A stretch of 64,000 nucleotides of DNA, taken from Pedobacter ureilyticus. GTDB lineage: Bacteria; Bacteroidota; Bacteroidia; Sphingobacteriales; Sphingobacteriaceae. The notes beneath the pieces were generated by a model. That model was not told the DNA's origin, did no database searches, and saw only the letters and a list, made by a program, of their open reading frames with translations. Both the position numbers and the translations under genes were made by a program. The stretch spans positions 1 to 64,000 of the forward strand of contig NZ_SSHJ01000007.1 in NCBI RefSeq assembly GCF_005925345.1, in the 5' to 3' direction. Positions 1-14,450 of this stretch are shown piece by piece. Position 1 is the first letter of the stretch. Every line of letters begins with the position of its first letter.

Positions 1-30
1 GGCATTATTGCCGCCAACAAAATAATGTAA
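1..30 (+). CDS. possible 3' end of an upstream plus-strand gene
   Basis: Frame 1 is open from the window edge and gives nine residues (GIIAANKIM) before a TAA stop. A rho-independent type hairpin follows 19 bases later, as expected after the end of a real gene. Nine codons are too few to identify a family, and an open frame of this length could be chance. It would be the gene bordering the mobile-element remnant on the left. Confidence 0.25.
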   Translation, partial: GIIAANKIM

Positions 31-48
31 AGTAGAAATGAAGTTAAA

Positions 49-78
49 CCGCTGAATTTTAGAAGTTCAGCGGCTTTT
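49..78 (+). terminator. rho-independent terminator
   Basis: An 8-bp perfect stem (CCGCTGAA at 49-56 pairing with TTCAGCGG at 66-73) is followed by CTTTT. It lies just after the TAA at 28-30. A further inverted pair, ATGTAAAGT at 25-33 and ACTTTACAT at 87-95, brackets the hairpin; whether that is part of the terminator or marks an element end is not known. Confidence 0.6.
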
Positions 79-101
79 ATAATATGACTTTACATAATCT
101 A

Positions 102-515
102 TTACTTTCCATAACCTTTCCCCAATGCGCCAGCTGTTTCGTATTTAATCCCATCCTTTCCGCCTACAATACTATCAAAGAAAGAGAATGCATCTATATT
201 CTGTACCACTTGGTAATCCCTGCCGACTACGCCCAAAACTTCATCGGTATCATTTCGAACCGTCGCAAAATGGTTCGGTACATCCAAACGCCATTCCATA
301 ACAATATCATTGTCATCTGTTTCGGGCGTGGTATCATCTCCATAGGTAAACAAGTTTCGTTTTTCAACGGTATAATCCAATCCTGCGTATTTTATGGCTT
401 CTGCGCTTGTGGGATAATCCTCTATGATTTTACCCAATCCATGCCATGCTTTTTCCTTCACCGAAAAAAAACTGTGCTTTTCGGTCTTGCTGTTATAATT
501 TAGGTTGTGTGCCAT
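102..515 (-). pseudogene. DUF932-type protein, C-terminally truncated
   Basis: The 137 residues match the N-terminal part of the DUF932 (phage/plasmid-like TIGR03299) family: an opening MAHNLNYN, then KAWHGLG, the family's early AEAIKYAGLDYTVEKR block, and VGRDYQVVQN-DAFSFFDSIVG. Family members usually run to several hundred residues and continue after GALGKG with an R-I-hydrophobic stretch. Here GALGKG is followed by YGK and a stop, so well over half of the protein is missing. These proteins are common in conjugative and plasmid-like elements and their function is unsettled. The start overlaps the upstream small gene by 23 bases, as in a co-transcribed set. The break near 100-110 is the best sign in the window of an element edge or deletion. 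Confidence 0.7.
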
Positions 516-699
516 GATAAATGTTTTTAGGGTTTCTAACTCTCGATAATAGAATTTCAGTTTCCAAAATATTGATGTTAGCGGTATCGCTGAGGCTTAA
601 TTTTGACTGTGTTTCTATTTCATTTACAATATCTGATAATTGGGTATGGTCGGCATGGACTGCCACGCGAACCATAATAAATAGGGTTTCGTATTTCAT
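493..699 (-). CDS. small mobile-element protein, unknown function
   Basis: A 68-residue protein beginning MKYETLFIMV. I chose the ATG at 699 because it overlaps the stop of the preceding small gene in an ATGA arrangement. The longer open frame (start 792) would run through that gene in another frame. Its stop overlaps the start of the DUF932 gene by 23 bases. The composition is a mixed alpha/beta soluble protein, with no signal peptide and no catalytic motif I recognise. The tight overlaps suggest translational coupling in a four-gene minus-strand set. Confidence 0.55.
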   Translation of the reverse strand: MKYETLFIMVRVAVHADHTQLSDIVNEIETQSKLSLSDTANINILETEILLSRVRNPKNIYHGTQPKL

Positions 700-830
700 C
701 GCTTTTGGGTATGCTGTTTTTTGAACTTGTCCAACTGTTGGTAAAATGCTTTCGGGTTTTCCTCTTCGAACTCCAACCCGTAGCCAGTCCAATACAATTG
801 GTCTAAGAATTCTATAAATGCCTCGAACAT
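696..830 (-). CDS. 44-residue mobile-element protein
   Basis: Reading the minus strand from ATG at 830 gives MFEAFIEFLDQLYWTGYGLE followed by FEEENPKAFYQQLDKFKKQHTQKR and TGA at 696. It is acidic in the first half and basic at the C-terminus, with no membrane segment. The stop overlaps the next start (ATGA), which supports a real, coupled gene despite its size. No family is recognised. Confidence 0.5.
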   Translation of the reverse strand: MFEAFIEFLDQLYWTGYGLEFEEENPKAFYQQLDKFKKQHTQKR

Positions 831-854
831 GGTAAATTGATTAAGTGGAAAAAT

Positions 855-882
855 AAACGCCCCACCCAAGGCAGGGCGTTTT
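855..882 (-). terminator. bidirectional hairpin terminator
   Basis: AAACGCCC (855-862) pairs perfectly with GGGCGTTT (874-881) around an 11-base loop, and T/A runs lie on both sides. It sits directly after the stop of the minus-strand gene at 888-1472 and before the start at 830, so it probably separates or attenuates transcription between them. Confidence 0.6.
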
Positions 883-887
883 AGCGA

Positions 888-1472
888 TTACTTTTGAGGA
901 ATAAAGATTTCACCTTCGATTTCTGCCAATTTATCAACGCAAAGCGTATTGACCATTTTAGCCACCGCATTGATGATAAAAGGGTTTTTGGTGGTAAACT
1001 CCCTCCCCTTATCATCTTCAATGGTCAATTCACAACGCTGAAAATGTGTACTATCGGTTTCCTCTGCATCATCCTTTTGCGCCACCTCGAAGGTTTCCAA
1101 TGTCCCGATAGTCTCCAACAATTTGCCCCTTTGGTTGATACGGCGGTTTAAGTCCAATGCCAATTTGATGGTCGCTTCCAAGTTCATTGCAGGTTTTTCT
1201 TCCTTTAACTGTTCCTTGATTTCCATTTTTGTTGGCTCTGTTTTTTGCTCTTGGCTAGCTAATGCAACCGCTTTGTCTTCCTGTTTTGGCTGCTCCTCGG
1301 TTTTACCTGTTACAGGTTTAGCAGTTTCTGCTTCTGCTTTTTTTTCCTTGTCAGGGTCAACCTGATTTGCATTTTCTTTTAAGGGTACTGCCGGACGGAT
1401 TGCCGATTTATCAGTTGATGTACTATTAACTGCTCCGTTGTTTTTTTCGCTTCCAATTACTAAAGTTTTCAT
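888..1472 (-). CDS. mobile-element protein with charged N-terminal tail
   Basis: A 194-residue protein. Residues 1 to about 95 are low-complexity and rich in Lys, Glu, Gln and Ala, probably disordered. Residues 96-194 form a compact domain (NLEATIKLALDLNRRINQRG; ELTIEDDKGREF; NPFIINAVAKMVNTLCVDKL). It has no signal peptide and no enzyme motif I can name. Similar small proteins sit beside DUF932 genes in Bacteroidota conjugative elements (family knowledge, not a search result). A terminator hairpin follows its stop. Function unknown. Confidence 0.6.
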   Translation of the reverse strand: MKTLVIGSEKNNGAVNSTSTDKSAIRPAVPLKENANQVDPDKEKKAEAETAKPVTGKTEEQPKQEDKAVALASQEQKTEPTKMEIKEQLKEEKPAMNLEATIKLALDLNRRINQRGKLLETIGTLETFEVAQKDDAEETDSTHFQRCELTIEDDKGREFTTKNPFIINAVAKMVNTLCVDKLAEIEGEIFIPQK

Positions 1473-2053
1473 GATTTCTATTTTTTAAATTTTTACTGAT
1501 GATGATTTGAATGATTTGCCCAAAAAGGGCGGTTCTACTGTTGCGAAATGCTGTGCCGTTTTCGCTGGTTGGGTCTGTGGGTGGGCTTCTGCCTTTTGTT
1601 GTGCGCATGGGTTCTTTCCTTTTAAAATTCAGTCGGCAGGAGCCTCCTGCCTTTTTGTTAAATGCCATCACCTGACCACAATCCAGTAGGCAGGCAAGAC
1701 TTTGCGAAAAAAAATACTACCCGAGCGCAGCGAGGTGTGGAGATTTTTTTTCAGCAAACCCGAAGGGCTTGGTCTTGACTAGGCTAATGGATTGTTCAGA
1801 AATTTTGGCACAAAAAGGTTGGGGGTAATTTGAATGCACCTATCTGAGCTTGACGCAAGATTTGTTAGCTTTACACTGGTTTGAAATGGCTAGGAACTAC
1901 GCAGGAAGGAAAGAAAAAAAAGAAAATGAAAAACCAATTCAGCAGCTGGAATTAGTGTTTATTTCAATTTTATGTACCTAACATTGCGTTTATTATATTC
2001 ACCATCGGCCAAATCAAAGCAACGGAAAACATAAAAAACTCATATAAATCCTA
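1473..2053. other. 581-bp non-coding region between divergent gene sets
   Basis: No convincing gene is seen; the minus-strand open frame at 1426-1671 is repetitive and overlaps the start of the neighbour, so I do not call it. The region separates the minus-strand element genes from the plus-strand HEPN/PIN pair, so promoters for both should lie here, but I see no clean TAnnTTTG box for either. It contains the large inverted repeat at 1701-1758 annotated separately. Confidence 0.5.
1701..1758. repeat. near-perfect inverted repeat with GC-rich centre
   Basis: TTTGCGAAAAAAAAT at 1701-1715 is matched in inverted orientation by ATTTTTTTTCAGCAAA at 1743-1758, with a single-base difference. The 27-base centre is rich in CCGAG/GCGAGG and is itself partly self-complementary. 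Such structures occur at transfer origins, at the ends of elements and as terminators; nothing here decides between these. Confidence 0.5.
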
Positions 2054-3016
2054 ATGAACAACTATCATAAAGACAGCCAACTTTTTTTCAGAGAAGTAGC
2101 AAAGGGCGTAACTGAAGACCTAGAGAAAGTCCAGATAATCCAGTTGGCGATGAACCTTGCGCTAGGATGTGAACGTCTGCTCAAAGGTATTCTCTTTGAT
2201 ATCAATCCCGCTTATATCCTAAATGAGCCCTCTTTTAAAAATTCCATCCAGGTATTATACAGGGCAAAACTTTTACAAGGATCAAACAAATCCCCTGAAC
2301 TGGCTCAAAACATCAACGGCGATGTTATCACTTTTAAAAATAGCCTGCTGAGGGCACAGCTTGTCTCTGAAACCACAAAGCAACACAAGAATATTCTCTT
2401 TGCAATTTCGGAAGCACGGGATATTATAGCACATTGTGAATTGCACCTTTTAAACATAGAACAGATCAAAGATATCATACAGCGTGATTTTTTTACCATG
2501 ATCAAACAGTTCACCGTTGAGCTTGGTCAAAAGCCATCATTATATTTTGAGAGCCATTCCGAGAGGCTATCAAAACTCTCCATTGCACACCAAAGCAACC
2601 TCGACATCAAAATAAAGATGTTGCTTGAGCTTCATCTGGAAAAATGGCAGCAGGCAAAAAAAATTACTGGTTATGTGAAAAAACGAGAAAAGGTGACCAA
2701 GGTGATGATTGGTGTGCTGAATCGAGGAAAGACCAAATGCCCTGCGTGCGAGCAGGACGCCGTTGTCCAATTTCACCCTATCATCGAGTTGGACGAAATG
2801 ATTTTGGAGAAAATAATCATAGGTTATGAAGTAAAGAAACTGAGCTGTTTTTATTGCAATCTCAAGGTTACCGAACCACCAATGCTAGACCAGTTGGGTA
2901 TAAAATATGATGCAGTTAAAAACGCATGTTTGTACTGTGGCAAGATTAACAATAACCTGTCAGGCATATGTGACAGTTGTAATTTGGTTACAGAGGACGG
3001 ACAGATCGATCTTTAA
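2054..3016 (+). CDS. HEPN-like protein with two zinc ribbons
   Basis: A 320-residue protein, largely helical for the first 220 residues. Residues 122-127 (RDIIAH) fit the R-x4-6-H motif of HEPN ribonuclease and toxin domains, within a SEARDIIAHCEL helix like those of HEPN proteins. The C-terminal part has four cysteine pairs: C229/C232 with C265/C268, then C292/C295 with C306/C309, which looks like two zinc ribbons. There is no signal peptide or membrane segment. The gene is 17 bases upstream of a PIN-domain gene on the same strand, so the two are surely one operon. Inference: a two-nuclease RNA-targeting defence or toxin system, with the zinc ribbons sensing or binding nucleic acid. The HEPN call rests on motif and helical context only. 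Confidence 0.6.
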   Translation: MNNYHKDSQLFFREVAKGVTEDLEKVQIIQLAMNLALGCERLLKGILFDINPAYILNEPSFKNSIQVLYRAKLLQGSNKSPELAQNINGDVITFKNSLLRAQLVSETTKQHKNILFAISEARDIIAHCELHLLNIEQIKDIIQRDFFTMIKQFTVELGQKPSLYFESHSERLSKLSIAHQSNLDIKIKMLLELHLEKWQQAKKITGYVKKREKVTKVMIGVLNRGKTKCPACEQDAVVQFHPIIELDEMILEKIIIGYEVKKLSCFYCNLKVTEPPMLDQLGIKYDAVKNACLYCGKINNNLSGICDSCNLVTEDGQIDL

Positions 3017-3033
3017 TAATAACTAGCGCAATC

Positions 3034-4128
3034 ATGTACATCGACATTTTCTTAGATACGAACATCTACCGTCAGCTTGGACAAAATTTTTATGAGCATA
3101 TAGACTATGAAAGCCTGGAGGATTACTGTTATTCATCTGGCTCTGAAATCGTCGTTGCCGAAACCGTATTGCGGGAGTACTTGGATTATTATGAGCATGA
3201 AGTGCTTAACAAGCAGATCAACGAGATCGAAAAAGCTTTTGATAAGCTAAAACGACTTCAAAAATTCAAAAAGGTTCGTTCCATTACTCTCCTGAAGCCT
3301 GCCGACGCCCAACTGGTCTATATCAAGAAAAAAATTACCGATGCGAAACGAAAAATCGGAGCAAATTCCATGCTTACCGAAGGGTATCTGATCGATTTCC
3401 TAGTTGACAACAAAAGAGAAAATAAAAAAGACAATACTAGAGATTTTCTGATCTGGTTAACGGTGTTATGGCTCGCCGGCAAAAGTCAGGATCGCAGTGT
3501 AGCTTTGATCAGTGATGATAGAATCTTTACTGACAACAAGATAATGAAAGACCTTCAGGCGAAGTTCAAATTAACGAATATTGAGGTATACCCGAGCATA
3601 TCATCGTTTTTGAGCTTATATGGTTTCAAATCACCGAATCTAACAGCAAAACTGATCGAAGAAGCTATTCCAATGAACGTTATCGAGAAAGAGTTGCTTG
3701 AACAAAAAGATGCGTTTCCCAGCCACATTAGCCGGTTTTATTATGATGCCAACCGTGAGTTTAAGCTAGAAGAATTCAAAGTGGACAATATGCATGTCGA
3801 ATCGTTCTATGCGCATAAAAACACAGAATTAGGAGAAGTAGAGATTATTGCCCATGTGATAGTGCACGTCAAAATGGTCTTTGAAACAGAATCCCAACAA
3901 GTGGGGCTTGCTGCTTACCTATTGGCAAGGGCAAAAGAGGATTTCTATCTAGAAACTTTCGATATGTCGGGGCGTCCGGTCTATGACGAAGATGTGCGTT
4001 TTTCTTTCCGCCTCACATTTGACGAAAATATCAATGCAATAACTTCATCAGAATATCTTGATTTCTTTCCGGATGATTACTATATCAAGAGAATTCAGGC
4101 CCACATCAAAAAACACAATCTGGAATAA
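3034..4128 (+). CDS. PIN-domain (DUF4935-like) ribonuclease
   Basis: A 364-residue protein. Residues 1-170 carry the acidic PIN pattern: D8 in IFLDTNIYRQL, E43 in VAETVLREYL, D137 in TRDFLIWLTVLWLAG, and D161/D162 in VALISDDRIF. PIN domains cut RNA using metal ions held by these carboxylates. This spacing and the long insert between E43 and D137 resemble the DUF4935/PIN-like group found in defence contexts rather than short VapC toxins. Residues from about 220 to 364 form a separate mixed alpha/beta domain I do not recognise. It is co-directional with the HEPN-like gene upstream (17-bp gap). There is no small antitoxin-like gene beside either. Confidence 0.7.
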   Translation: MYIDIFLDTNIYRQLGQNFYEHIDYESLEDYCYSSGSEIVVAETVLREYLDYYEHEVLNKQINEIEKAFDKLKRLQKFKKVRSITLLKPADAQLVYIKKKITDAKRKIGANSMLTEGYLIDFLVDNKRENKKDNTRDFLIWLTVLWLAGKSQDRSVALISDDRIFTDNKIMKDLQAKFKLTNIEVYPSISSFLSLYGFKSPNLTAKLIEEAIPMNVIEKELLEQKDAFPSHISRFYYDANREFKLEEFKVDNMHVESFYAHKNTELGEVEIIAHVIVHVKMVFETESQQVGLAAYLLARAKEDFYLETFDMSGRPVYDEDVRFSFRLTFDENINAITSSEYLDFFPDDYYIKRIQAHIKKHNLE

Positions 4129-4187
4129 CTGCACAAAATAGCCCCGCTCGTCTTGACGACGTTATTTAACATAGTAATTCAAAAAAA

Positions 4188-7130
4188 CTATACCATGATT
4201 GGGTTTTCGACAATGGGGAGCTTAGCAAACTTCTGTACCTCGATGCTCGGAAATCCAAAGTCCTCTACTACCCTGCCCTCGATCAAATAACAACCGCTTC
4301 CCCTAAAAGGGTAGCTAGGCGTCGAATTTGGAAAATGCACCGTATCAAAAAAATCGCCCTCTGCATCCAGAAACGTACCGAACCACATTTTTTTATTGTT
4401 CTTGGTATGCACCGTTTTCTCGGTCACATAATGACCCACCATCCGCACAGGCCTGCCAATGAAAGAGGAAAGCTGTCTTGCCATCGCAGCACCTCGATAT
4501 TCGGTCTTTAGCAAATCGAACATCGATAACGACAAGGGAAACCCCAAAAGTTCCAGTTCGTGATAGGCATTTTCCAAATCGGTATTGATCAGTTCGGGCA
4601 TCGCATAATCCTTATGCTGCACCTCAAAAAGCTCCGCATGGTTATTCGGTTTGACCTTTGAGCCAAATAACAGATGTACTTCCCACAGCAGTTCCTTTTT
4701 GCTCTTACCAGTAAACCGCAGCGCACCCACACGGATCAGAATGATACACTGGTCTAAGGTAATTCCCACGCGTTTGACAAACTCTTCCAATGAAGCATAG
4801 ATTCCGTTCATGCGCCTTTCCTCGGTAATGATTTCAATGTATTTACCTTCAAATCCCTGGATTCCGATAAAGCCCAAATAGGCATCATCGCCAAAAATGG
4901 CGACCACCCCAAAACTACAGTTCACGCAGGGCAAATGCACCTTTGCGCCAGCCTTTGAAAGTTCATGCACATACAGCGACCTCGAATAAAAGCCTCCATA
5001 ATTGTTCAACACCGCTACCATAAATTCCTTAGGATAATAGGTCTTCAAATACAAACTTTGATAGCTCTCCACTGCAAAAGAAGCAGAGTGCGCCTTGGAA
5101 AAACTATAACCCGCAAAACTCGATACCTGCCTCCAAACCTCCGCAACAACCTCTTTAGGCCTGCCCAATCCCTCTGCCAATTCAAAGAACCGCTCGACCA
5201 AACGCTCAAATTCCTTTTTGGAGCGATATTTCCCGCTCATTCCACGGCGTAGTATATCAGCATCGGTTCCGTCCATGCCCGCAAAGTGTATGCAGATTTT
5301 GATCACATCTTCCTGATAGACCATTACCCCAAAAGTTTCCTTCAATCGCTCTTCCATTACCGGATGCAGGTAAACGACCTTATCGGGCGCATGGAAACTC
5401 TGGATATAGGTCTTCATCATCCCCGAACTGGCTACCCCAGGACGGATAATCGAACTTGCGGCAACTAGTGTCAGATAGTTATCACAGGTCAGCTTGGTCA
5501 ATAGTTGCCGCATCGCTGGCGATTCAATATAGAAACAGCCAATGGTATTACCGATTTTTAGCCTTGCATTCAAATTCGGGTCTTTCATAAAATCCTTCAC
5601 CTTATGGATATCGATCTTACGGTTCTGGTTGAGTTCCACCAATCTTACCGCTTCCTTGATGTGACCGATGCCACGCTGTGAAAGAATATCGTATTTATCG
5701 TAGCCAATCTTTTCCGCTTCGTACATATCCCACTGCACCGTAGGCATCCCTTTAGGCGGTAAGTCTAATGCAGTATAATAGGTAATCGGTTCTTCGGAAA
5801 TCAGTACCCCTCCCGCATGGATGCTCCTTTGATTGGGCATGTTTTGCATCAGGTTATAAATCGTGGTTATCTTTTTAAACGTGGCATTGTCCCTGTTAAT
5901 TCCGGCCCTGCTTGGATCGGTAAAGCCATCGATCTCTGATTTGGGCAAACCCATCACCTTTCCGATTTCCCTAATAACCGAACGATCCTTAAATGTGGAC
6001 ATCGTACCCAGCAAAGCCGTATGCTCTCTGCCATAGCGTTTGAAGATATAATCCTGCACATCTTCCCGCTCATCCCATGAAAAATCAAGGTCAAAATCGG
6101 GTGGAGAGGTACGCTCGGCATTCAAGAACCGCTCAAAATAAAGATCAAGCTCAATCGGGTCAACGTCGGTAATGCAAAGGCAATAGGCAACCGTAGAATT
6201 GGCACCAGAACCCCTGCCCACATGATAATAGCCCTGATCCTTGGCATATTTAATGATATCCCAAGTGATCAAAAAGTAGGCACAAAAGTCTAGATCAACA
6301 ATCACCTTCAGCTCCTGCTTCACCTTGGACAAAGCCTCTTTGTTCTTGTTCCCGTAACGGTAGACCATCCCCTTCATTGCCAGTTTCTCCAGCAGTGCCT
6401 TATCATCTTTTTTAGAGCCCGTGAACGTTTTACGGTTCAAATTGATCCTGCCCAAAGGATAATCCATTTCACAGGCATTCATTATCGCCCGTGTATTATC
6501 CAGAATAAAACTGTGCTTGGCAAACTTGGCCTCCATTTCACCCGCCTTCAAAAAGCGGTCGGTCGGCCTGCATTTATCCAATGGCTCCACCATGGTCAGT
6601 AAGGTATTCAGGTCAATTCCCCTAAGGTATTCGTGCAAACGGTATTCGATCTTATCTGCCACAAAAACAGGTTGCAGGGCAACTAGCTTAGACTTAATCG
6701 ATGAAATATCCATAGCAAACAGTTCATGCAGCTGCGAAAAATGAATACCCAGATACTCATTTGAACGGAGTTCCCCTAAATGTCCAAAAGGGTAAACCAC
6801 ATTCGCATGAGTAAATGCAGGAGCCACATCGGGCAATTCCAACTGCTCCAGATTATGATAGGTCAGAAAATCGTTCAGTTCTTTCATCCCCTCCCTGTTA
6901 CGGGCAATGCCGATGAATAGCAATTTCTTATCACGGCGAAATTCGATACCAGCAATCGGCTTCAAGCCCTTTTCGCTGCATTCGCGAAAAAACTCCATTA
7001 CCCCCGTAGAGTTATTGATATCGGTTAAAACAAGCTGGGTTACCCCGAAACCAATAGCCTCCGAAACAATTTTTTCAATCGACATCGTACCATAACGCAA
7101 GCTATATTGGGAATGAACATTGATATACAT
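4188..7130 (-). CDS. dnaE2: error-prone DnaE-type DNA polymerase III alpha subunit
   Basis: A 980-residue C-family polymerase, shorter than replicative DnaE (about 1,160). An N-terminal PHP domain is present but its metal ligands look degraded: N4 stands where the first His of H-x-H is expected (INVHSQYS), and TDI replaces the usual TDH at 36-38. The polymerase core is intact: GRGSGANS at 305-312, the PDFDLDF catalytic motif at 344-350 (D345, D347, D349) and a third carboxylate region YDKYDIL around D481. The C-terminus has a helix-hairpin region and an OB-fold-like tail. It starts 3 bases after the dinB stop, so the pair is one operon. The pairing with a Y-family polymerase suggests SOS translesion synthesis. 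The N-terminal substitutions argue against proofreading by PHP. Confidence 0.85.
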   Translation of the reverse strand: MYINVHSQYSLRYGTMSIEKIVSEAIGFGVTQLVLTDINNSTGVMEFFRECSEKGLKPIAGIEFRRDKKLLFIGIARNREGMKELNDFLTYHNLEQLELPDVAPAFTHANVVYPFGHLGELRSNEYLGIHFSQLHELFAMDISSIKSKLVALQPVFVADKIEYRLHEYLRGIDLNTLLTMVEPLDKCRPTDRFLKAGEMEAKFAKHSFILDNTRAIMNACEMDYPLGRINLNRKTFTGSKKDDKALLEKLAMKGMVYRYGNKNKEALSKVKQELKVIVDLDFCAYFLITWDIIKYAKDQGYYHVGRGSGANSTVAYCLCITDVDPIELDLYFERFLNAERTSPPDFDLDFSWDEREDVQDYIFKRYGREHTALLGTMSTFKDRSVIREIGKVMGLPKSEIDGFTDPSRAGINRDNATFKKITTIYNLMQNMPNQRSIHAGGVLISEEPITYYTALDLPPKGMPTVQWDMYEAEKIGYDKYDILSQRGIGHIKEAVRLVELNQNRKIDIHKVKDFMKDPNLNARLKIGNTIGCFYIESPAMRQLLTKLTCDNYLTLVAASSIIRPGVASSGMMKTYIQSFHAPDKVVYLHPVMEERLKETFGVMVYQEDVIKICIHFAGMDGTDADILRRGMSGKYRSKKEFERLVERFFELAEGLGRPKEVVAEVWRQVSSFAGYSFSKAHSASFAVESYQSLYLKTYYPKEFMVAVLNNYGGFYSRSLYVHELSKAGAKVHLPCVNCSFGVVAIFGDDAYLGFIGIQGFEGKYIEIITEERRMNGIYASLEEFVKRVGITLDQCIILIRVGALRFTGKSKKELLWEVHLLFGSKVKPNNHAELFEVQHKDYAMPELINTDLENAYHELELLGFPLSLSMFDLLKTEYRGAAMARQLSSFIGRPVRMVGHYVTEKTVHTKNNKKMWFGTFLDAEGDFFDTVHFPNSTPSYPFRGSGCYLIEGRVVEDFGFPSIEVQKFAKLPIVENPIMV

Positions 7131-7133
7131 GGC

Positions 7134-8291
7134 TTACATATTTAGGTTTAAAGTGGAGGCAAGGGCAATGGAATCATGACCAAAACGTCTTCTAATCTTG
7201 TCCATTGCCTGGCAAAGCGAATAGGCTTCCTTGGAAGAGGAATACATATCCATCTGCTCAAAGCCAGAAACAAGGTGTGAAAACCGCACACCGACCAGCC
7301 GCAAGAGCATCCGTTTGGAATACACCGATTTGAAAAGCTCTTTGGTCTTCAACAGCAACACCTTATCCAGTGAAGTATATGGGATCATCGCCTGTTTGGT
7401 CACCGTCTCAAAATTGGAATAGCGGATGGTCACCGTTACGCAGGCTGTCAGTTTCTGTTTTTCCCGTAGCTCAAACCCCAAATCCATGACCATTGCCGTT
7501 AACATTTGGCTGATGGCTTCCACATCAATGGTATCGGCCTTAAAGGTACTCTGGGTGCCGATGCTCTTCTGCTCAGTATAGGGAATAACAGGAGAATGGT
7601 CGATCCCTTTTGCCTTGTTGAGCAGCACCAATCCATTTTTTCCAAGTACAGAAACCATCATATCTGGATGCACCTGTGAAAGATTAACGATTTTTCGAAT
7701 GCCCATATCAGAAAGCTTGATAAAGGTCTTTTCCCCCAGACCTGGTATTTTTTTGATCGACAGCGGATTTAAGAATGGAACGACGCCAGGCTGCTCGATA
7801 TTCAGTTCCCCGTTGGGCTTGCATTCGTTGGTCGCCATTTTTGAAACTGTCTTGTTCACCGAAAGCCCGAAAGAAATCGGCAGACCAGTTTCCTTAATCA
7901 CCGTTGCCCGCAGCTCGTGCGCATATTTCATCACCCCATGGAAGCGATCCATTCCGGTCATATCGATATAATGCTCATCGATGCTCGCCTTTTCGATCAG
8001 CGGCACACGTTCTTTCAAGATATCGGTAATCTCCAATGAGGCCTTGGAATACTCATCCATATTCCCCCGAACAAAAACTGCATGGGGACATAACAATTTT
8101 GCCATCCGCGAGGGCATGGCAGAATGTACCCCAAACTTCCTTGCCTCATAACTGCACGAAGCAACCACACCACGATCCGAGGTGCCCCCGATAATGACGG
8201 GCTTACCGATCAATGATGGATCTTTTCGGACCTCGACGGACACGAAAAAAGCATCTTGATCCATATGGATGATGTGCTTATCGGCAAACAT
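7134..8291 (-). CDS. dinB: Y-family DNA polymerase IV (DinB-like)
   Basis: A 385-residue protein. It has the Y-family signature HMDQDAFFVSVE (D11) and SIDEHYID (D105, E106), which supply the three catalytic carboxylates. Next come a helix-hairpin-helix (KIPGLGEKTF) and a little-finger domain (KSIGTQSTF onward). The family extends primers past damaged bases with low fidelity. No clear QLxLF clamp-binding tail is visible at the C-terminus, which is unusual; binding could occur through the partner DnaE. It is the first gene of a two-gene operon with dnaE2 (3-bp gap), behind a strong promoter overlapped by a palindromic operator. No LexA/S24 repressor gene lies beside it. Confidence 0.88.
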   Translation of the reverse strand: MFADKHIIHMDQDAFFVSVEVRKDPSLIGKPVIIGGTSDRGVVASCSYEARKFGVHSAMPSRMAKLLCPHAVFVRGNMDEYSKASLEITDILKERVPLIEKASIDEHYIDMTGMDRFHGVMKYAHELRATVIKETGLPISFGLSVNKTVSKMATNECKPNGELNIEQPGVVPFLNPLSIKKIPGLGEKTFIKLSDMGIRKIVNLSQVHPDMMVSVLGKNGLVLLNKAKGIDHSPVIPYTEQKSIGTQSTFKADTIDVEAISQMLTAMVMDLGFELREKQKLTACVTVTIRYSNFETVTKQAMIPYTSLDKVLLLKTKELFKSVYSKRMLLRLVGVRFSHLVSGFEQMDMYSSSKEAYSLCQAMDKIRRRFGHDSIALASTLNLNM

Positions 8292-8315
8292 ATTTTGAAT
8301 AATTAATTGGGACTA

Positions 8316-8371
8316 CAAATTTATACTAATAATATTAGTAAGTTATCAACAATATACTAACATTTTTAGTT
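8316..8371 (-). promoter_or_regulatory. dinB-dnaE2 promoter with two palindromic operators
   Basis: On the minus strand a Bacteroidota-type -7 box TAAATTTG (8316-8323) is preceded, after exactly 23 bases, by TTG (8347-8349). A perfect dyad TACTAATAATATTAGTA (8324-8340) fills the space between the two boxes. A second copy of the same form, TACTAA-N5-TTAGTT (8355-8371), lies 31 bp away, close to three helical turns. This arrangement is what a dimeric repressor would use to block the promoter. An SOS or phage-type repressor is the likely owner, by inference from the polymerase genes it controls. Confidence 0.7.
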
Positions 8372-8430
8372 TTTACATTGTTTACCATTTATCTAATTTT
8401 CGTATCTCATCCAAATCACTATCTTTAAAG

Positions 8431-9387
8431 TTGAAAATTAACATCATGAAAGCGCTCTGGAATATATTCGTTAAAAACCTTTCAAACATCATGAGTTTGA
8501 TCGGAATCCTCCTATCCGTCTATTTCGGCGTTTATTATGTGCCCGTATGGTTAGAAGATGCAGAAAAGCAGAAATTTTACAATGCCCAAGCAAGTCTTGA
8601 GCAATCCATCAAAGAATTAATCTTTAGCGATTCTACTTGTAACTATGCAGAGATACAGTCGCTGGTCAAATCAAAAGAAATCATTCTCAATAAAAATTAT
8701 CCCCTCTCTACTGAGCAGATCATGATCAAAGTAGAGGCCTCTTTTATGGATGATAAGTTTTTACCCCTAGTAAAAAGAAGGCAACTAATCGCCGAGTCCC
8801 AGCTGATCAGGAAGACTATTCCACCAAACATAAATAAAGTAGAGAAAAAAAAGAGTTCACTTCCCCTATTAGGCTGGGTATCAATAATCTTTACAATCAC
8901 ATCAACATTCGCTGCCATTTATGGCTATTACCTTAGATACCTTAAGGAGAAGGAAACTCAGGAAGAAATCAACAATCAGGTCAGCCAAGTTGAGGCAGAA
9001 TTTACTGTCTCCCGCAATGGCTTCGCATTTGAGAGCGAAATCGTCAGGGCCCTACAAAATTATCCCGGCATTGAAATGGTGAGGCAAAATGAACATATGG
9101 ACTGGGGATTTGATATTGAATTCATCTATCAGGGCAGAACTATATATGTTGAGGTTAAATACCTCACCAGCAGCAAAATTGGCCTTGCCTCAATACAAAA
9201 ATTCTTCCATAGACAGAAGGGAAAACAAGGCGAATTTTGGTTCGTACACAACAATGAGTTGACTAAAATGTCACAGCACAAATTCGAGGAACTTAACCAA
9301 ATCTCCGGATCCGCCAGACGTTGTAAACTTATCCAGACAAGTTCGGCAGCAGATTTCACCAAAAAATTAAATACTTTATTGCACTAG
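8431..9387 (+). CDS. membrane-anchored PD-(D/E)XK nuclease
   Basis: A 318-residue protein. Two hydrophobic segments (about 20-38 and 146-168) flank a mostly helical, charged stretch. After a short coiled region comes a C-terminal restriction-endonuclease-like domain: FAFESEIVRAL (E201/E203), WGFDIEF (D228) and IYVEVKY (E241, K243), the D...E-x-K pattern of Mrr/NERD-type nucleases. Cytosolic placement of the nuclease is expected from the second membrane segment. It is a single gene, divergent from dinB, with no methylase partner, so a type IV or abortive-infection role is more likely than classical restriction. An alternative start at M6 (8446) is possible. Confidence 0.7.
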   Translation: MKINIMKALWNIFVKNLSNIMSLIGILLSVYFGVYYVPVWLEDAEKQKFYNAQASLEQSIKELIFSDSTCNYAEIQSLVKSKEIILNKNYPLSTEQIMIKVEASFMDDKFLPLVKRRQLIAESQLIRKTIPPNINKVEKKKSSLPLLGWVSIIFTITSTFAAIYGYYLRYLKEKETQEEINNQVSQVEAEFTVSRNGFAFESEIVRALQNYPGIEMVRQNEHMDWGFDIEFIYQGRTIYVEVKYLTSSKIGLASIQKFFHRQKGKQGEFWFVHNNELTKMSQHKFEELNQISGSARRCKLIQTSSAADFTKKLNTLLH

Positions 9388-9726
9388 AGTAATTCACATC
9401 GAAGTACAATTGCCATAAATAAATACAAACAAATGCACTAACCCTATTATAAATGAATTAATTTATATACACGGGCCTGCCTGTAGATTTAGGCAAAATG
9501 GTCACCGAATTTCATTCCAAACTGACCACCCCAACATCAGCTTCAGCTTTTTGAATGCATCAACCAAATAAAATCAGATGACATTTTCCTACCTATAGAA
9601 GCTTGAAAGAACAAGTGCCTACTAGGTGCTTTGGCTTCACATAAGCTTATCCAGAAAGAAAATCCAATTAGGTATTGAAAAATTATAATGGAAATAGGAA
9701 AAATTTTACTTTGCAGAAAAAATAAC
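9388..9726. other. intergenic region with possible IS end remnant
   Basis: No gene is supported. At 9500-9530, read on the minus strand, GGTGGTCAGTTTGGAATGAA is followed by a second block of similar form (CGGTGACCATTTTGCC, reaching 9493). Repeats of this GGTGGTCA style are typical of IS21-family ends, but no transposase is nearby. Near 9710, TTACTTTG resembles a -7 box for the next gene, which favours its downstream start codon. Confidence 0.3.
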
Positions 9727-10419
9727 ATGACTCCAATGAATACCAAGCCCAAAATGCACGAAGACGACCAATTTTTTTTGAGAAATTATGCAGAACTAAA
9801 ACCTGATTACTTAAAAAACGTTGCTCATCACGCCAATCTTGACGACGTCAAAAATGGCTTAGTGAATCTAGCGGATGCAGACTGTATAACCAATTATTCT
9901 GGAAACATGAGCCGGGTTGTTCACCCCAATCTCAAAAATAAAACTATTGACCAGACCGTCTTAGTTAAAGACTTTGAGCAGCGCCTACATCTCGCCCTTG
10001 AGTGCCTTCCCAGCTTTGGTCAGCAAACGGTATACCGTATGGAAACCCACCACCCAGTTATCAGCGATTACCAAAATTATTTTAAGGGGAAATTCGGTCA
10101 GGTGATGAGTGTATCCTTTAATTTATCTACTTCAAAAGATGACTGGGAAGACGAAAAGGTAGTTTATGTCATTAACACCTTGACTGAAAACAGTAGGGCA
10201 AAAGACATTTCACGGCTCACCAACTTTGCAAAAGAGCAAGAAGTACTGTTTTTAAAAGATACTCATTTTCAAATCAATAGGCAGGAAGAAAAAAATGGCA
10301 AATTGTATATCTATATGCAAGAAACCCTGTCTCCAGCAACTTTTGCATACAACTATGTAGAGATCAGCTATAATTGCAATGCCTCATGTTCCGATGAGGA
10401 GCCTGGGATGTTCGACTGA
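9727..10419 (+). CDS. ADP-ribosyltransferase of the R-STS-ExE class
   Basis: About 230 residues from the ATG at 9727. An in-frame ATG at 9688 would add 13 residues, but a promoter-like TTACTTTG lies between the two and an A-rich leader precedes 9727. Numbering from the longer form, the three hallmarks of exotoxin-type ADP-ribosyltransferases are in order: YR at 116-117, FNLSTS at 144-149, and KEQEVLF with E183-x-E185. The spacing and the following LKDTHFQI strand agree with the fold. The family transfers ADP-ribose from NAD+ to protein, RNA or DNA targets; the target here is unknown. There is no signal peptide, so the enzyme should act inside the cell. It stands alone between a membrane nuclease and a Gabija-like pair and has no obvious antidote gene. 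Confidence 0.72.
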   Translation: MTPMNTKPKMHEDDQFFLRNYAELKPDYLKNVAHHANLDDVKNGLVNLADADCITNYSGNMSRVVHPNLKNKTIDQTVLVKDFEQRLHLALECLPSFGQQTVYRMETHHPVISDYQNYFKGKFGQVMSVSFNLSTSKDDWEDEKVVYVINTLTENSRAKDISRLTNFAKEQEVLFLKDTHFQINRQEEKNGKLYIYMQETLSPATFAYNYVEISYNCNASCSDEEPGMFD

Positions 10420-10444
10420 CAAAATTTTACACTGACTGTCATAC

Positions 10445-11473
10445 TTATCTAGTGATGAGTTTAAATTTTTTATATAATCCACCCTTCACAAAGTATAAAT
10501 TCCCCCTTGCTCTGGAACAGGCTACATATAACTTATTTTTGGTCTGAGGAGATAGCGATTTCAAATCCGATTTCTTAAAGCTCTTCCAAGTCTTATCATT
10601 GATCACCACACAGACATCCTGGTAATGGTCTTCACCCTTGCATTCTCCCCAATTTCTGGAAAAACAATCGTATTTCCACTGTTCCTGAAAAAACAATTTC
10701 ACGACTTTAGGATTCGCAAAAAGCTCATCCACTTTCCCTGGATCATCGACAACCCCAACAAAAAAAGACTGGTCTCCATGGGATTCGATCAAAATTCCGA
10801 TCTTCTCGAATATAAAGCCGCAAACACTAGGGTTGCAGCGGTAACTTTTAACTAAAGTCGTGCAATCGACTTCGAGGCCCATCTTAATAAAGTTAGCTTT
10901 ATACTTCTCATAATCATCATGCAAGGTGCTGTTTACACTTCCGTCTCGACTGGTATCAAATGTATGCTGATAGAAATCTCCTACAAAAAGAAGACTAAGC
11001 TTTGCTGATGAAAGATGCTTCAACAAATTGAAATCATGCCCCGCAAAATCCTGAACCTCATCAATATACAGTTCATCATAATATTTTTCAAGCCTATTGT
11101 TGATTTCTTCGAGCACCTTTTTTTCCACAAGTAACCTTGCCAGCCGGTTGCTGTAAAGTCTTTTATACTTATCGATATACCTGTCATCGCCTGTAGCGAA
11201 TCGGCGTACATTTGGTGTAAAAGTTAGTCCTTTACCCCCAAGCTCTGAGGAAAGGAACGGACGGTAGCAGTGAGAATACAAAAAATCAAAATAGGTCATC
11301 ACCTTGATATTCTTTGGCATATAGCCAAACTTCCGCTGGATGCGAGAGCGCAAATGACCATGGGTATTGTTCGTAAAAGTCAATAGTAGAGCCCGTTTTT
11401 CAAGGCTCAACCGGTCAACGATTAGCGTTGTCTTACCAGACCCTGCAACAGCAAAGATTACCCGTTTATCCAT
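10445..11473 (-). CDS. gajB: short UvrD-type helicase, Gabija GajB-like
   Basis: A 342-residue superfamily 1 helicase. Motifs: Walker A AVAGSGKTT at 8-16, motif Ia-like LTFTNN, DEVQD at 138-142 (motif II), VGDFYQHTF at 164-172 (motif III), SYRCNPSV (motif IV), GECKGEDHYQDV (motif V-like) and YVACSRAR (motif VI). It is shorter than the roughly 490 residues of characterised GajB, with small or missing 1B/2B subdomains. Its start overlaps the stop of the OLD nuclease gene by 16 bases, giving the gajA-gajB order. In Gabija the helicase couples DNA unwinding or NTP state to nuclease activation; the same role is inferred here. Confidence 0.8.
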   Translation of the reverse strand: MDKRVIFAVAGSGKTTLIVDRLSLEKRALLLTFTNNTHGHLRSRIQRKFGYMPKNIKVMTYFDFLYSHCYRPFLSSELGGKGLTFTPNVRRFATGDDRYIDKYKRLYSNRLARLLVEKKVLEEINNRLEKYYDELYIDEVQDFAGHDFNLLKHLSSAKLSLLFVGDFYQHTFDTSRDGSVNSTLHDDYEKYKANFIKMGLEVDCTTLVKSYRCNPSVCGFIFEKIGILIESHGDQSFFVGVVDDPGKVDELFANPKVVKLFFQEQWKYDCFSRNWGECKGEDHYQDVCVVINDKTWKSFKKSDLKSLSPQTKNKLYVACSRARGNLYFVKGGLYKKFKLITR

Positions 11474-13017
11474 TGAATGGCTTCTTTAATATAGGACGGC
11501 GGGTTCACCTTCTCACAAATATTTTCTAATAATTCAAAAGCAACATCCGCTTTGTTCTTTAACATATACTCCTGTACGCTGAGAGTTTGTCTGCCGCCAG
11601 CAAAAAGTGTTTCGCACAATGAGGCATTATCCTGATAAACACAGACCTCGAAGGTATATCTTGAGGCATCGGTATCGGCAAACACTCCTAAAAGTGGATT
11701 GGCATAAGGCGCATAATTATCAACACAGTTTTTTTGATAGTCCCCATCATTGTCCCGTACCACAGCCGTTTTGATACCCAGCATCTTTGCGAGATCCAAG
11801 TAACGTTTAAAACTCTTACCCCCAACCGAAAGGATATGTACGCCGCGAAAATCGGGATCTTCTCCGACGACATTCTTAAAAAATTCCTCGATCAGCATGA
11901 ATTCTGCATCCCCCTCGACTAAGATAACTTTACTGGAAAGTACAAATTCAATAATGTTATTGTCCGGAGCTTTGATGAAAAATTTTGCAGTATCGTCTTT
12001 CAGATCCTTGAGCAGCACAGGTATTACACTATTGCTGTTGAGCAAGATTGACTTTCGCAAATCCAACCGTGTACTGATTAGATTATTATGGGTAGTAATA
12101 AAGAGCTGTTTTCCCTTATTCATCCTGATCTTGCGAATCAGCCGTTTCATATTTAAGTGGCTCAAATGATTTTCCGGCTCCTCTAGCAAAATTGCATCGA
12201 TATTGCTGCTATGTTTATTCAGCGCAAATTCGGTTTTGATGAAACACTGTTTGCCCTTGCCTTTCTGCTCGATATTGATTTCATCTTCGGTCAAAATCAA
12301 GTCCGTTAAAAGATTTGCTTTGGGACTATTTCGTACTCCAAAGGCATAGTTGGCGAGAGTTTGGTTGGTCGAGGAAAGAACATCGTTCTTAAAAACTTCC
12401 TTACTCTTGCGGTATTCATTTTGCTGCTTTTGGCGGTCTTTGCTCGTTACGCTACCGGCATACATGGCCTTTACATATTCGCGGGTCGCATATTCGTTAT
12501 TGACCTGAGCATTGTCGATCAGCACGTGCCTGAGAAAACGTTTATACCCTGTATAACTGTAGTCGGAAAATGATTTGAATTGGATGGTGTAATATTCAAA
12601 AGGAAAATTATTCCCAGGTTGGGCTAATATCTCGCGAATCTCATCTGACAGATCATCGTTAGGTTCACAAATCAGCTTCAATCCATCGCAAATTTTGCTT
12701 TCGGAATTATTCTTACCGTTTAAATCGGGATTATGCTGCTCATCCAAGTAGAGCTCTATCCACAAGACTGGAAGTTCATCATATTTTTTGCCGCGAGCAA
12801 AGAATTCCTCTATTGCCCCAACATTAAACATACCCTCCAAGCCTATCGCCTCCACTTTGCTCTTACTGCCGCTCAAAACAATATCGATGGCAGTCAAAAT
12901 AGAACTTTTACCAGCCTCATTATCCCCGATCAATACATTCAATTCCGGATCGAAATCCACTTTAAAAGCAGGGAACCTTTTAAAATTTTTCAGCTTTATA
13001 CTAGTAATACAGCTCAT
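11458..13017 (-). CDS. gajA: OLD-family ATPase/TOPRIM nuclease, Gabija GajA-like
   Basis: A 519-residue protein. An N-terminal ABC-type ATPase has Walker A GDNEAGKSS at 31-39, Walker B LLEEPENHL at 277-285 and an H-loop TTHN at 308-311. The C-terminal TOPRIM nuclease has VILVEGDAE (E368), then LSVGGKSF and the acidic cluster D422-x-D424-x-D426. This is the OLD architecture, and pairing with an overlapping UvrD-like helicase gene is the mark of class 2 OLD/Gabija defence. GajA nicks DNA when nucleotide pools fall during phage infection (family knowledge). The length is slightly below the usual 580. The two genes form an operon on the minus strand, convergent with the ADP-ribosyltransferase. 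Confidence 0.85.
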   Translation of the reverse strand: MSCITSIKLKNFKRFPAFKVDFDPELNVLIGDNEAGKSSILTAIDIVLSGSKSKVEAIGLEGMFNVGAIEEFFARGKKYDELPVLWIELYLDEQHNPDLNGKNNSESKICDGLKLICEPNDDLSDEIREILAQPGNNFPFEYYTIQFKSFSDYSYTGYKRFLRHVLIDNAQVNNEYATREYVKAMYAGSVTSKDRQKQQNEYRKSKEVFKNDVLSSTNQTLANYAFGVRNSPKANLLTDLILTEDEINIEQKGKGKQCFIKTEFALNKHSSNIDAILLEEPENHLSHLNMKRLIRKIRMNKGKQLFITTHNNLISTRLDLRKSILLNSNSVIPVLLKDLKDDTAKFFIKAPDNNIIEFVLSSKVILVEGDAEFMLIEEFFKNVVGEDPDFRGVHILSVGGKSFKRYLDLAKMLGIKTAVVRDNDGDYQKNCVDNYAPYANPLLGVFADTDASRYTFEVCVYQDNASLCETLFAGGRQTLSVQEYMLKNKADVAFELLENICEKVNPPSYIKEAIQWING

Positions 13018-13166
13018 GCAACTGGTTTTAAGAGTGTTAGCTGGAAAGATATGGATTTTCTACCTAAAAACCCCTCTTTAACATTTCTATTCTACACGCT
13101 AGCGCAAGAAGTATTGTTATAATGTTTTTTCAATAGGTTTAACCGTCGTTGTTCCCCAGTTTTAAC

Positions 13167-13200
13167 ATAAAAAAACCTGACCGTTTCCGATCAGGTTTTT
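13167..13200. terminator. bidirectional terminator
   Basis: ACCTGA (13175-13180) pairs with TCAGGT (13191-13196), flanked by a seven-base A run on one side and a T run on the other. It lies 20 bases after the stop of the histone-like gene on the minus strand and can end its transcript, separating the tra-linked genes from the Gabija pair. Confidence 0.6.
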
Positions 13201-13216
13201 CCCAAATTACTACCGC

Positions 13217-13393
13217 TTACTTTGCGTTTTTCTTTTCTGTGATCTCCTTACGGATATCTGAGGCCAGAACTTTTAAATCCTGCATGGCTTTACGTACCCT
13301 TGTACCAGCTGCGCCATTATTGGAGTTATAGAATTTTCCAGCATCCGTTTCAATATCAGAGATCAACTGTTTTACCTTTTGAAATTTTTCCAT
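13217..13393 (-). CDS. histone H1-like small basic protein
   Basis: The minus-strand frame from ATG at 13393 encodes 58 residues: MEKFQKVKQLISDIETDAGK, then a loop with NNGAAGTRVRKAMQDLKVL and a Lys-rich end (RKEITEKKNAK). This matches the short histone H1/Hc1-like proteins widespread in Bacteroidota, which bind DNA non-specifically. The downstream terminator and clean stop support a real gene. It lies between the Gabija pair and the tra operon, an uncommon place for what is usually a chromosomal gene. Confidence 0.7.
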   Translation of the reverse strand: MEKFQKVKQLISDIETDAGKFYNSNNGAAGTRVRKAMQDLKVLASDIRKEITEKKNAK

Positions 13394-13460
13394 GTTTTTA
13401 ATATGCTTTTATGTTTATAAATTAATTAGTTCCCGCTAAAGCGAATATATCATTTTCCGG

Positions 13461-14450
13461 CTAAACTCCCATTCCCTGACCTTGGGCAACTTCCTTGTCC
13501 TTGCCCTGTTCCATTTTCTTCGCAAAGACATTACTCATCTCCAGCCCAGTCTCCTTTTGGAACTGTTCCCTTTTTTCAGGCTTGCCGTTTTCCGCATAGA
13601 AGTTGAGCTTACCATAACGAACGGCCGTCTCCAGATACATTTTGGTTTCCTGCCCCTCCTTTTCAACCGTCACCATCGGACGGTTACCGTTCATCAGTGA
13701 AACTTCCAACGCCTCCGCCTTTTTCGGATCGACCATTTCCTTGATCTTGTAATCATCCAAAAGCGATTTCACATCATAGCCGTAGGCATCGGTAAACTGA
13801 CGGAAAGTTAAATTATTCTGACGGTCTCTTTCTTTTTCAGTATCCAGCTGCATCCACGCCTTGTATGGCGTACCTTCCCTGCTGAGCAAATCATCACGGT
13901 AGACCGACCTGCCCTGAACCAAGTTGGCTGCCTGTTCTTTTGAAAAGCCCTTACCATGATCCAGCCAAAAGGTCTGTGGCAATGGCGGCGAGTAGAATTC
14001 GCGTTTGAAATCCCTTGAAACATAATTGATCTTGCCCTCTTCCATATTGGCAAGCATCGACTTATTGGCTGCATCCTTACCCACGGCAAGCTCGCTGTTG
14101 CCCTTCTGCTGCTTAAAGAAATCGATGGCCTCAGCCACGTTTTCCAGTTTCTTGACAATATTCTTTCCCTCTTCGGTCTTGGTAATGACCATATACTTCT
14201 GGCCTTCCTCCAACGGCTTCAACTGGTTGTGCACCGCTTCCAAACGGTTCAGGTAATAATAGTCCGACTGACCTGACTGCTTGAAGTGCAGGGTGATGTC
14301 GACCTGTCCCCTGTTTGCTTTTACCTCATCGTAAAGTTTAAAGGCCGGGTCATCGTTCTTCATGTGCTCTTCCATCTTGGCGATATGTGCTTCTGCGAAG
14401 CCGAGCTTTTTCATCTCATCTTTGAGATCTTCCAAATTGTTCAAATTCAT
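13461..14450 (-). CDS. DUF3945/DUF4099-like mobile-element protein
   Basis: A 329-residue soluble protein. The central part has YYYLNRLEAVH, then PPLPQTFWLDHGKGFSKEQAANLVQG and RSVYRDDLLSREGTPYKAW with an LD pair, the pattern of DUF3945/DUF4099 proteins carried by Bacteroidota conjugative elements. The tail is charged and rich in Gln and Gly. No catalytic residues are known. It lies 47 bases downstream of traM in the position where traN would be expected, and is probably the last gene of the tra transcript before the histone-like gene. Confidence 0.55.
   Translation of the reverse strand: MNLNNLEDLKDEMKKLGFAEAHIAKMEEHMKNDDPAFKLYDEVKANRGQVDITLHFKQSGQSDYYYLNRLEAVHNQLKPLEEGQKYMVITKTEEGKNIVKKLENVAEAIDFFKQQKGNSELAVGKDAANKSMLANMEEGKINYVSRDFKREFYSPPLPQTFWLDHGKGFSKEQAANLVQGRSVYRDDLLSREGTPYKAWMQLDTEKERDRQNNLTFRQFTDAYGYDVKSLLDDYKIKEMVDPKKAEALEVSLMNGNRPMVTVEKEGQETKMYLETAVRYGKLNFYAENGKPEKREQFQKETGLEMSNVFAKKMEQGKDKEVAQGQGMGV

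Follow-up and report, generated by a model that had tools for sequence, protein, structure and literature searches.

Two neighbouring, separable predicted RNase genes of the HEPN-zinc-ribbon and PIN_12 families within the variable cargo of a Bacteroidota conjugative element

The window analyzed here, a stretch of 64,000 nucleotides from Pedobacter ureilyticus (assembly GCF_005925345.1, contig NZ_SSHJ01000007.1), carries two adjacent genes for predicted RNases, a HEPN protein with a C-terminal zinc ribbon (gene 1) and a PIN_12 protein (gene 2). Both genes lie on the same strand with a spacing of 17 bp, and the open reading frame (ORF) calls agree in this with the original prediction made from the sequence (Table 1). 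This arrangement raises the question whether the genes form a fixed two-component system or whether they are modules that can be exchanged independently and that meet as cargo of a mobile element. The original prediction knew of no described system with exactly this pair, and the portions of the literature on HEPN, PIN_12 or DUF4145 and defence that were covered likewise gave no description of a HEPN/PIN_12 operon.

Table 1. Features of the gene pair and of its surroundings; positions are counted from the first nucleotide of the window.
Feature	Position	Strand	Basis
Left edge of variable cargo	1569..1805	.	Backbone common with G272, 81.7% identity to L023
Gene 1 (320 aa), predicted HEPN RNase, zinc ribbon at the C-terminus	2054..3016	+	ORF, alignment of relatives
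Ex3K HEPN signature, E40-K44	2171..2185	+	E40 60/61, K44 61/61; signature per PMC3710099
Rx4H HEPN motif, R122-D123-I-I-A-H127	2417..2434	+	R122, D123, H127 each 61/61
Conserved four-Cys zinc ribbon, C229, C232, C265, C268	2738..2857	+	Alignment
Second CxxC...CxxC cluster, C292, C295, C306, C309	2927..2980	+	Pattern in 40/61
Gene 2 (364 aa), predicted RNase of the PIN_12 family	3034..4128	+	ORF, Pfam, alignment
PIN domain, acidic set D8, E48, D137, D162	3034..3522	+	PF16289 and alignment
Conserved gene-2 C-terminal part (Y259, D310, R314, P315)	3646..4068, limits approximate	+	Alignment
Gabija genes: GajB 10445-11473, GajA 11458-13017	10445..13017	-	GajA E=1e-108, GajB E=2.2e-50
Right edge of variable cargo	13244..13400	.	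Backbone common with G272, 82.3% identity to L023
Equal longest contigs of gene-1/gene-2 relatives			P0004/P0063 13646; P0042/P0072 3552; P0019/P0106 2621 bases

HEPN proteins are described to share an Rx4-6H motif in which the arginine is typically followed by N, D or H, and many but not all HEPN families have in addition a conserved upstream Ex3[KR] (PMC3710099). A profile match is not strictly defining for HEPN proteins, and divergent HEPN families are known that go without it. In the alignment of gene 1 with all 60 relatives from the database search (61 rows), both signatures are present: the Rx4H motif carries D after the arginine and is invariant at R122 and H127, the two residues on which the original prediction had built, and an Ex3K precedes it. 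The original prediction had also placed two four-Cys zinc ribbons in gene 1, of which the first is conserved (C229 and C232 in 61/61 rows, C265 and C268 in 59/61 with two gaps), whereas the pattern of the second is absent or incomplete in 21/61 rows and this cluster is therefore not a defining part of gene 1. Gene 1 can be identified as a HEPN protein at the level of motifs rather than by a demonstrated fold, because no HEPN profile matches it and the alignment of its N-terminal part to related profiles is weak. Neither Pfam nor NCBIfam nor PADLOC holds a HEPN model that matches gene 1; PF13643 gave no match and is absent among the Pfam families listed for the relatives. No HEPN model is found among the 25 of 74 Pfam families listed for the 60 relatives or in a further family set, all 12 members of which were inspected, and a single HEPN_Apea match in 59 relatives lay below the cut-off and was set aside. 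Profile comparison of gene 1 with solved structures gave no significant match. Crude Chou-Fasman averages for gene 1 indicate mixed helix and strand; this lends no support to a helical bundle, although the method is too crude to rule such a fold out.

A search with a gene-1 profile built from the query and 22 of the 60 relatives connected gene 1 to a wider family. Among 279 genomes of the genus Flavobacterium, four gave a match: two strong ones (G781 and G782) are the genomes of loci L002 and L003, which were known before, a third (G1014) spans 25 positions of the profile, contains a stop and was left uncounted, and the fourth (G958) was weak in the genome search (E=4.7e-6) and reached E=1.6e-9 as an ORF in locus L042. 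A search with this L042 protein retrieved 579 proteins, 120 of which were listed. None of these 120 has a precomputed Pfam domain, two of them are named ‘DUF4145 domain-containing’ by the source, and no Pfam HEPN model matches the L042 protein or occurs among the 25 families listed for its relatives. The alignment of the query with 32 of the 120 listed members (33 rows) shows E38, R42, R110, N111, H115, C218, and C221 in 33/33 rows and C257 and C260 in 32/33 rows with one gap. At full length, where no unrelated control was run, hhalign aligned the gene-1 profile to the wider-family profile with a probability of 95.5% and E=1.5e-8, bringing R122/H127 onto R110/H115 (RDx3H on RNx3H) with the ribbon cysteines in register. 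Taken by itself, the N-terminal part gave a weak alignment to the wider family (probability 15%, and 11.5% in reverse) that spans 31 columns around the Ex3K and does not include the Rx4H, and its comparison with a four-domain DUF4145 profile remained at 0.4%, with unrelated PIN controls at 0.2-0.4%. From these sequence comparisons gene 1 is assigned to a divergent branch of a larger, predicted HEPN-zinc-ribbon family. By source names and record titles, relatives of gene 1 outside the Bacteroidota occur in Acinetobacter modestus, Methylomonas and a Desulfuromonadaceae metagenome-assembled genome (MAG).

Gene 2 is a predicted member of the PIN RNases, which are metal-dependent enzymes. It matches the Pfam family PF16289 (PIN_12) over residues 5-163 (E=2.4e-12; 48 bits with a cut-off of 32), so that of the two enzyme identities proposed originally, the PIN assignment is carried by a family model above its cut-off and the HEPN assignment by the two published signatures at the motif level. 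The alignment comprises 69 rows, i.e., the query and 68 of 69 hits, the remaining one (P0129, E=1.6e-5) having been dropped. The acidic set needed revision: D137 and D162 are present in 69/69 rows and D8 in 62/69 (six gaps, one M) as predicted, but E43 is glutamate in just 32/69 rows and D161 is aspartate in 8/69, and both were rejected as catalytic residues. Since E43 is weakly kept and E48 is found in 68/69 rows with one gap, E48 takes the second position of the acidic set. The set is complete in 62/69 rows, and six rows are gapped at one site. The additional C-terminal part recognized in the original prediction is a conserved feature of the family (Y259 in 69/69 rows, D310 in 68/69 with one gap); its likeness to 6p0f, a GTPase subunit of a restriction endonuclease (E=0.028), was judged to be due to chance.

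The setting of the two genes was derived from a comparison with the related element of the genome G272 (L023). The backbone of this element matches the window up to position 1805 and again from 13244, and no blastn match exists between, so the intervening 11.4 kb constitute variable cargo; the corresponding segment of G272 measures 5.1 kb and contains a relative of gene 2 (L023:7443-8492). Genes resembling tra genes start at 13461 behind the cargo (assigned by eye, the first one without family match). Besides the pair, the cargo holds Gabija genes, a DNA polymerase III alpha-type protein with a Y-family polymerase, an Mrr-type restriction endonuclease (22.2 bits, cut-off 21), and an ADP-ribosyltransferase-like protein (24.5 bits, cut-off 23.4). 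The two genes thus belong to the accessory cargo of a predicted Bacteroidota conjugative element, within its variable segment, and the setting is defence-like. The GC content is uninformative (0.40 and 0.39 for the pair, 0.46 for the tra genes, 0.38 for 25000-64000). Rfam at the gathering threshold gave nothing in 1-14000; a scan of 1700-4300 gave 14 promoter-like sites with 7.0 expected (sd 2.5), to which no meaning is attached here, and no terminator-like site on the plus strand between the two genes. No PADLOC defence model matches gene 1 or gene 2, and the scattered weak matches among their relatives reach E 0.0006 for gene 1 and 0.0014 for gene 2 at best. Neither protein matched phages or plasmids; among viral contigs gene 2 had no match and gene 1 had one (L013), in whose 9 kb gene 2 does not occur.

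To which extent the two genes belong together can be judged from their distribution. Gene 1 is rare, with matches in 5/400 genomes of the order, among which that in G158 is spurious (its protein matches Cys_rich_CPCC with E=5.9e-14), and in 1/395 genomes in a spread-out search of the class, this one being the window itself. Gene 2 was found in 4/400 genomes of the order, where the match in G308 is weak, and in 3/299 genomes of the family of G781, one of them with internal stops (G1094). In these sampled searches, in which at most 5 to 8 candidates were scored per genome, both genes occurred in one genome only in the window. With all candidates scored, gene 2 was found in none of ten entries for gene-1 genomes; these reduce to nine different genomes, since G026 counts as one with L001, a Mucilaginibacter MAG with an identical gene-1 protein, and to eight after dropping G158, so the count is 0/8 true gene-1 genomes besides the window. 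MAGs, which may lack part of the genome, account for four of the eight, and this search had no positive control inside, although the same profile had found the window in the order search. Gene 1 in turn was found in 0/6 gene-2 genomes, again with all candidates scored and with the window as positive control; the six include the distant relative in G308 and the broken one in G1094. Apart from the window, no retrieved locus has a gene-2 relative beside gene 1, and a pattern-limited scan of named genomes, which covered 77 stretches and 6 loci, is no census. Where gene 1 stands without gene 2, other neighbours appear. In L002 a gap of 29 bp separates gene 1 from the end of a preceding 8xMP membrane protein gene (PF24838, E=1.7e-23), L006 shows by eye a similar arrangement at the same chromosomal place, and in L004 type I restriction genes, assigned by eye from their ORFs, come immediately downstream of gene 1. 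Gene 2 follows a KAP-type NTPase gene in L022 (PF07693, E=1.2e-6), which by eye seems split by a transposase gene.

Whether the pairing recurs was followed through contig sizes and trees. Comparison of the longest contigs of the 60 gene-1 and 68 gene-2 relatives gave four exact size matches, of which one (P0043/P0083) was discarded, the contig being too short for both genes, and three are roomy enough, with 0.10 expected under a crude jitter null (Table 1); P0004 and P0063 agree also in source list and contig count. These coincidences suggest that the pairing occurs repeatedly, a reading from sizes and not from adjacency on the contigs, and conservation of the pair elsewhere, as asked of the original prediction, is thereby at best weakly borne out. 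For the trees, rows below 270 amino acids were dropped (2 of 61 and 1 of 69), which left 59 gene-1 and 68 gene-2 rows. The distances from the window to the nearest relatives run parallel in both trees, with 0.043/0.047 changes per site for P0001/P0061, 0.23/0.17 for P0002/P0062, and 0.93/0.78 for P0004/P0063. The solo relative P0003 (64% identity, L001) falls, with support 99/91, into a seven-row clade that also includes the window and P0004; its position inside this clade is less sure (97/42). A label for paired rows, defined by the inferred pairs and counting P0001 and P0061 on identity alone, needs 3 changes on the gene-1 tree, where the comparison involves only four solo rows, and 4 changes on that of gene 2; 329/500 and 43/500 shuffles, respectively, were as low, and the pair label is therefore not clustered beyond chance.

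Several explanations can be given for these observations. The two genes could constitute an obligate two-component defence system, in which the HEPN-ribbon protein would detect infection and activate the PIN RNase, or the reverse. The common orientation and the 17 bp spacing would fit such a system, as would the parallel divergence of the nearest relatives, for which co-location of P0001/P0061 and P0002/P0062 is assumed and not seen, and the 13646-base longest contig, contig count and source list common to P0004 and P0063. However, gene 2 is absent from all eight gene-1 genomes, gene 1 from all six gene-2 genomes, and the solo P0003 belongs to the very clade of the window and P0004, which renders an obligate system unlikely. 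The original prediction of a fixed system with the ribbon protein as sensor and trigger of the PIN enzyme is not supported by the same two counts. The opposite view, that two unrelated single-gene cargo items without any functional link came to lie side by side by chance in a defence-rich segment, draws on exactly this strong separability, on the modular variable segment with its unlike neighbours, on the lack of clustering of the pair label in both trees, and on the other settings of gene 1 beside type I restriction genes and 8xMP. Against it stand three longest-contig coincidences where the crude null expects about 0.10, and the parallel divergence, and we regard it as quite unlikely.

A toxin-antitoxin pair, in which one protein would neutralize the other and the zinc ribbon would serve as the toxin-binding part, is also conceivable. 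VapBC-type toxin-antitoxin operons combine a PIN RNase with a second gene, and the tight two-gene arrangement here resembles them, but gene 2 has 364 amino acids and an extra domain, and its 320-residue partner brings a predicted catalytic motif of its own. The ribbon region shows a faint likeness to the N-terminus of the MqsA antitoxin (profile matches to MqsA chains, E=0.08-0.43), which is not significant and can serve as a lead only. Both proteins contain complete predicted catalytic sets, which an antitoxin need not have, and each gene is found without the other, so that this explanation appears the most doubtful of those considered.

We assign a probability of about 0.5 to the reading that the two genes are separable predicted RNase modules, probably of the abortive infection type, which are recurrently but not obligately paired as cargo of the element. 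HEPN RNases are described as metal-independent (PMC3710099) and typically dimeric (PMC11087260), and gene 1 would accordingly encode a metal-independent endoribonuclease that is normally dimeric and held inactive, with the C-terminal zinc ribbon most likely as the recognition part, binding nucleic acid or protein. Gene 2 would encode a metal-dependent endoribonuclease that has a further domain for regulation or binding. Both proteins may be triggered by infection or by an incoming element, upon which the RNases would cut host and invader RNA and growth would stop; judged from the families, the pair most likely acts through triggered cleavage of RNA, by which the infected cell would be arrested. 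The genes were probably placed side by side more than once, and a single predicted transcript could then provide two layers of RNA cleavage with no need for an obligate sensor-effector complex. As the genes are separable, each would work alone or with other partners. An extension of this thought, which we put forward as speculative and improbable, is that the HEPN-zinc-ribbon family, which extends far beyond this clade and apparently has no Pfam model, swaps its effector partners (PIN_12 here, 8xMP in Flavobacterium) and represents a shared recognition module that activates chemically unrelated RNases or a membrane partner against infection.

The components of the pair have counterparts among described proteins. 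The combination of HEPN with a zinc ribbon is already described, and DUF4145-like and other HEPN-zinc-ribbon proteins share with gene 1 the Rx4H with its polar residue, the Ex3K and the ribbon (PMC3710099); the ribbon is C-terminal in gene 1, whereas the DUF4145 proteins of L032, L033, and L034 have N-terminal Cys pairs (by eye). The BREX-associated defence protein BxaP resembles gene 1 in its predicted DUF4145-like N-terminus of the HEPN superfamily and differs, compared by description only, in a HEAT-like C-terminus in place of the zinc ribbon (PMC10799925). Tha, a HEPN RNase of 301 amino acids from a Staphylococcus aureus prophage, possesses an R-x4-H (RNSIMH) as gene 1 does, and the histidine of this motif is needed for defence against phage (PMC11087260). 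By description, its HEPN part is C-terminal instead of N-terminal, and the word ‘zinc’ is absent from the main text of the report, while gene 1 has a ribbon (PMC11087260). On the PIN side, DS-3 and DS-5 are PIN RNases shown to be defensive against phage; DS-5 has a two-gene layout as seen here and needs both genes, but its partner is described as a DUF5830 protein with an AcrIF4-like domain and not as HEPN (PMC13092281). The same enzyme pairing is realized in the eukaryotic RNA-degrading protein Swt1, which unites PIN and HEPN in a single polypeptide with a HEPN part inferred to be inactive, in contrast to the two genes and the intact HEPN motif found here (PMC3710099). Dnd-related neighbourhoods are described to contain RNases of both the HEPN and the PIN type among their nucleases (PMC10853773).

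If the two genes are defensive, the immunity carried by mobile elements would gain a HEPN-zinc-ribbon family that is free of Pfam domains in its 120 listed members (579 hits for one branch), together with a PIN_12 family. Further defence genes could be sought in related elements at the place of the segment 1806-13243, and with the pair itself it can be tested in a simple way whether RNases whose active sites are unrelated act as a double layer.

Beyond genes 1 and 2, the conjugative element in the window carries further cargo, including a DNA polymerase III alpha-type/Y-family polymerase pair that is mutasome-like. The related element in genome G272 contains a gene-2 relative in its equivalent variable cargo segment, and in G301 such a relative follows a KAP-type NTPase gene, which seems to be interrupted by a transposase gene. 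The relative in G1094 is broken by in-frame stops and is apparently a copy in decay.

Cargo of the element (window positions) and relatives of genes 1 and 2 in fetched loci (L)
Feature	Position	Strand	Remark
DNA polymerase III alpha-type protein and adjoining Y-family polymerase	4188-8291	-	element cargo
Mrr-type restriction endonuclease	8431-9387	+	N-terminal part membrane-like (by eye)
ADP-ribosyltransferase-like protein	9688-10419	+	barely exceeds Pfam cut-off
Gabija pair GajA/GajB	10445-13017	-	same cargo segment
Gene-2 relative, G272	L023:7443-8492
KAP-type NTPase gene, gene-2 relative, G301	L022:4165-8149
Gene-2 relative, G1094	L040:6507-7625
Membrane-protein gene, gene-1 relative, Flavobacterium	L002:7357-8960		membrane protein 8xMP (Pfam)
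Membrane-protein gene, gene-1 relative, Flavobacterium	L006:7358-8960		slight ORF overlap
HEPN-zinc-ribbon gene	L042:7005-7964		DUF4365 gene after it
Gene-1 relative with neighbours, G283	L020:2939-10040

The distant gene-1 match in L042 and its relatives constitute a larger HEPN-zinc-ribbon family (579 matches), in which the RNx3H motif is present in all 33 aligned members and no Pfam domain was found among the 120 matches listed. The gene-1 relatives in two Flavobacterium genomes are immediately preceded by a membrane-protein gene, and both arrangements occupy a matching chromosomal site. In G283, the gene-1 relative is flanked by an AAA ATPase and subtilase pair and by an AbiTii-domain gene, a neighbourhood that is defence-like.
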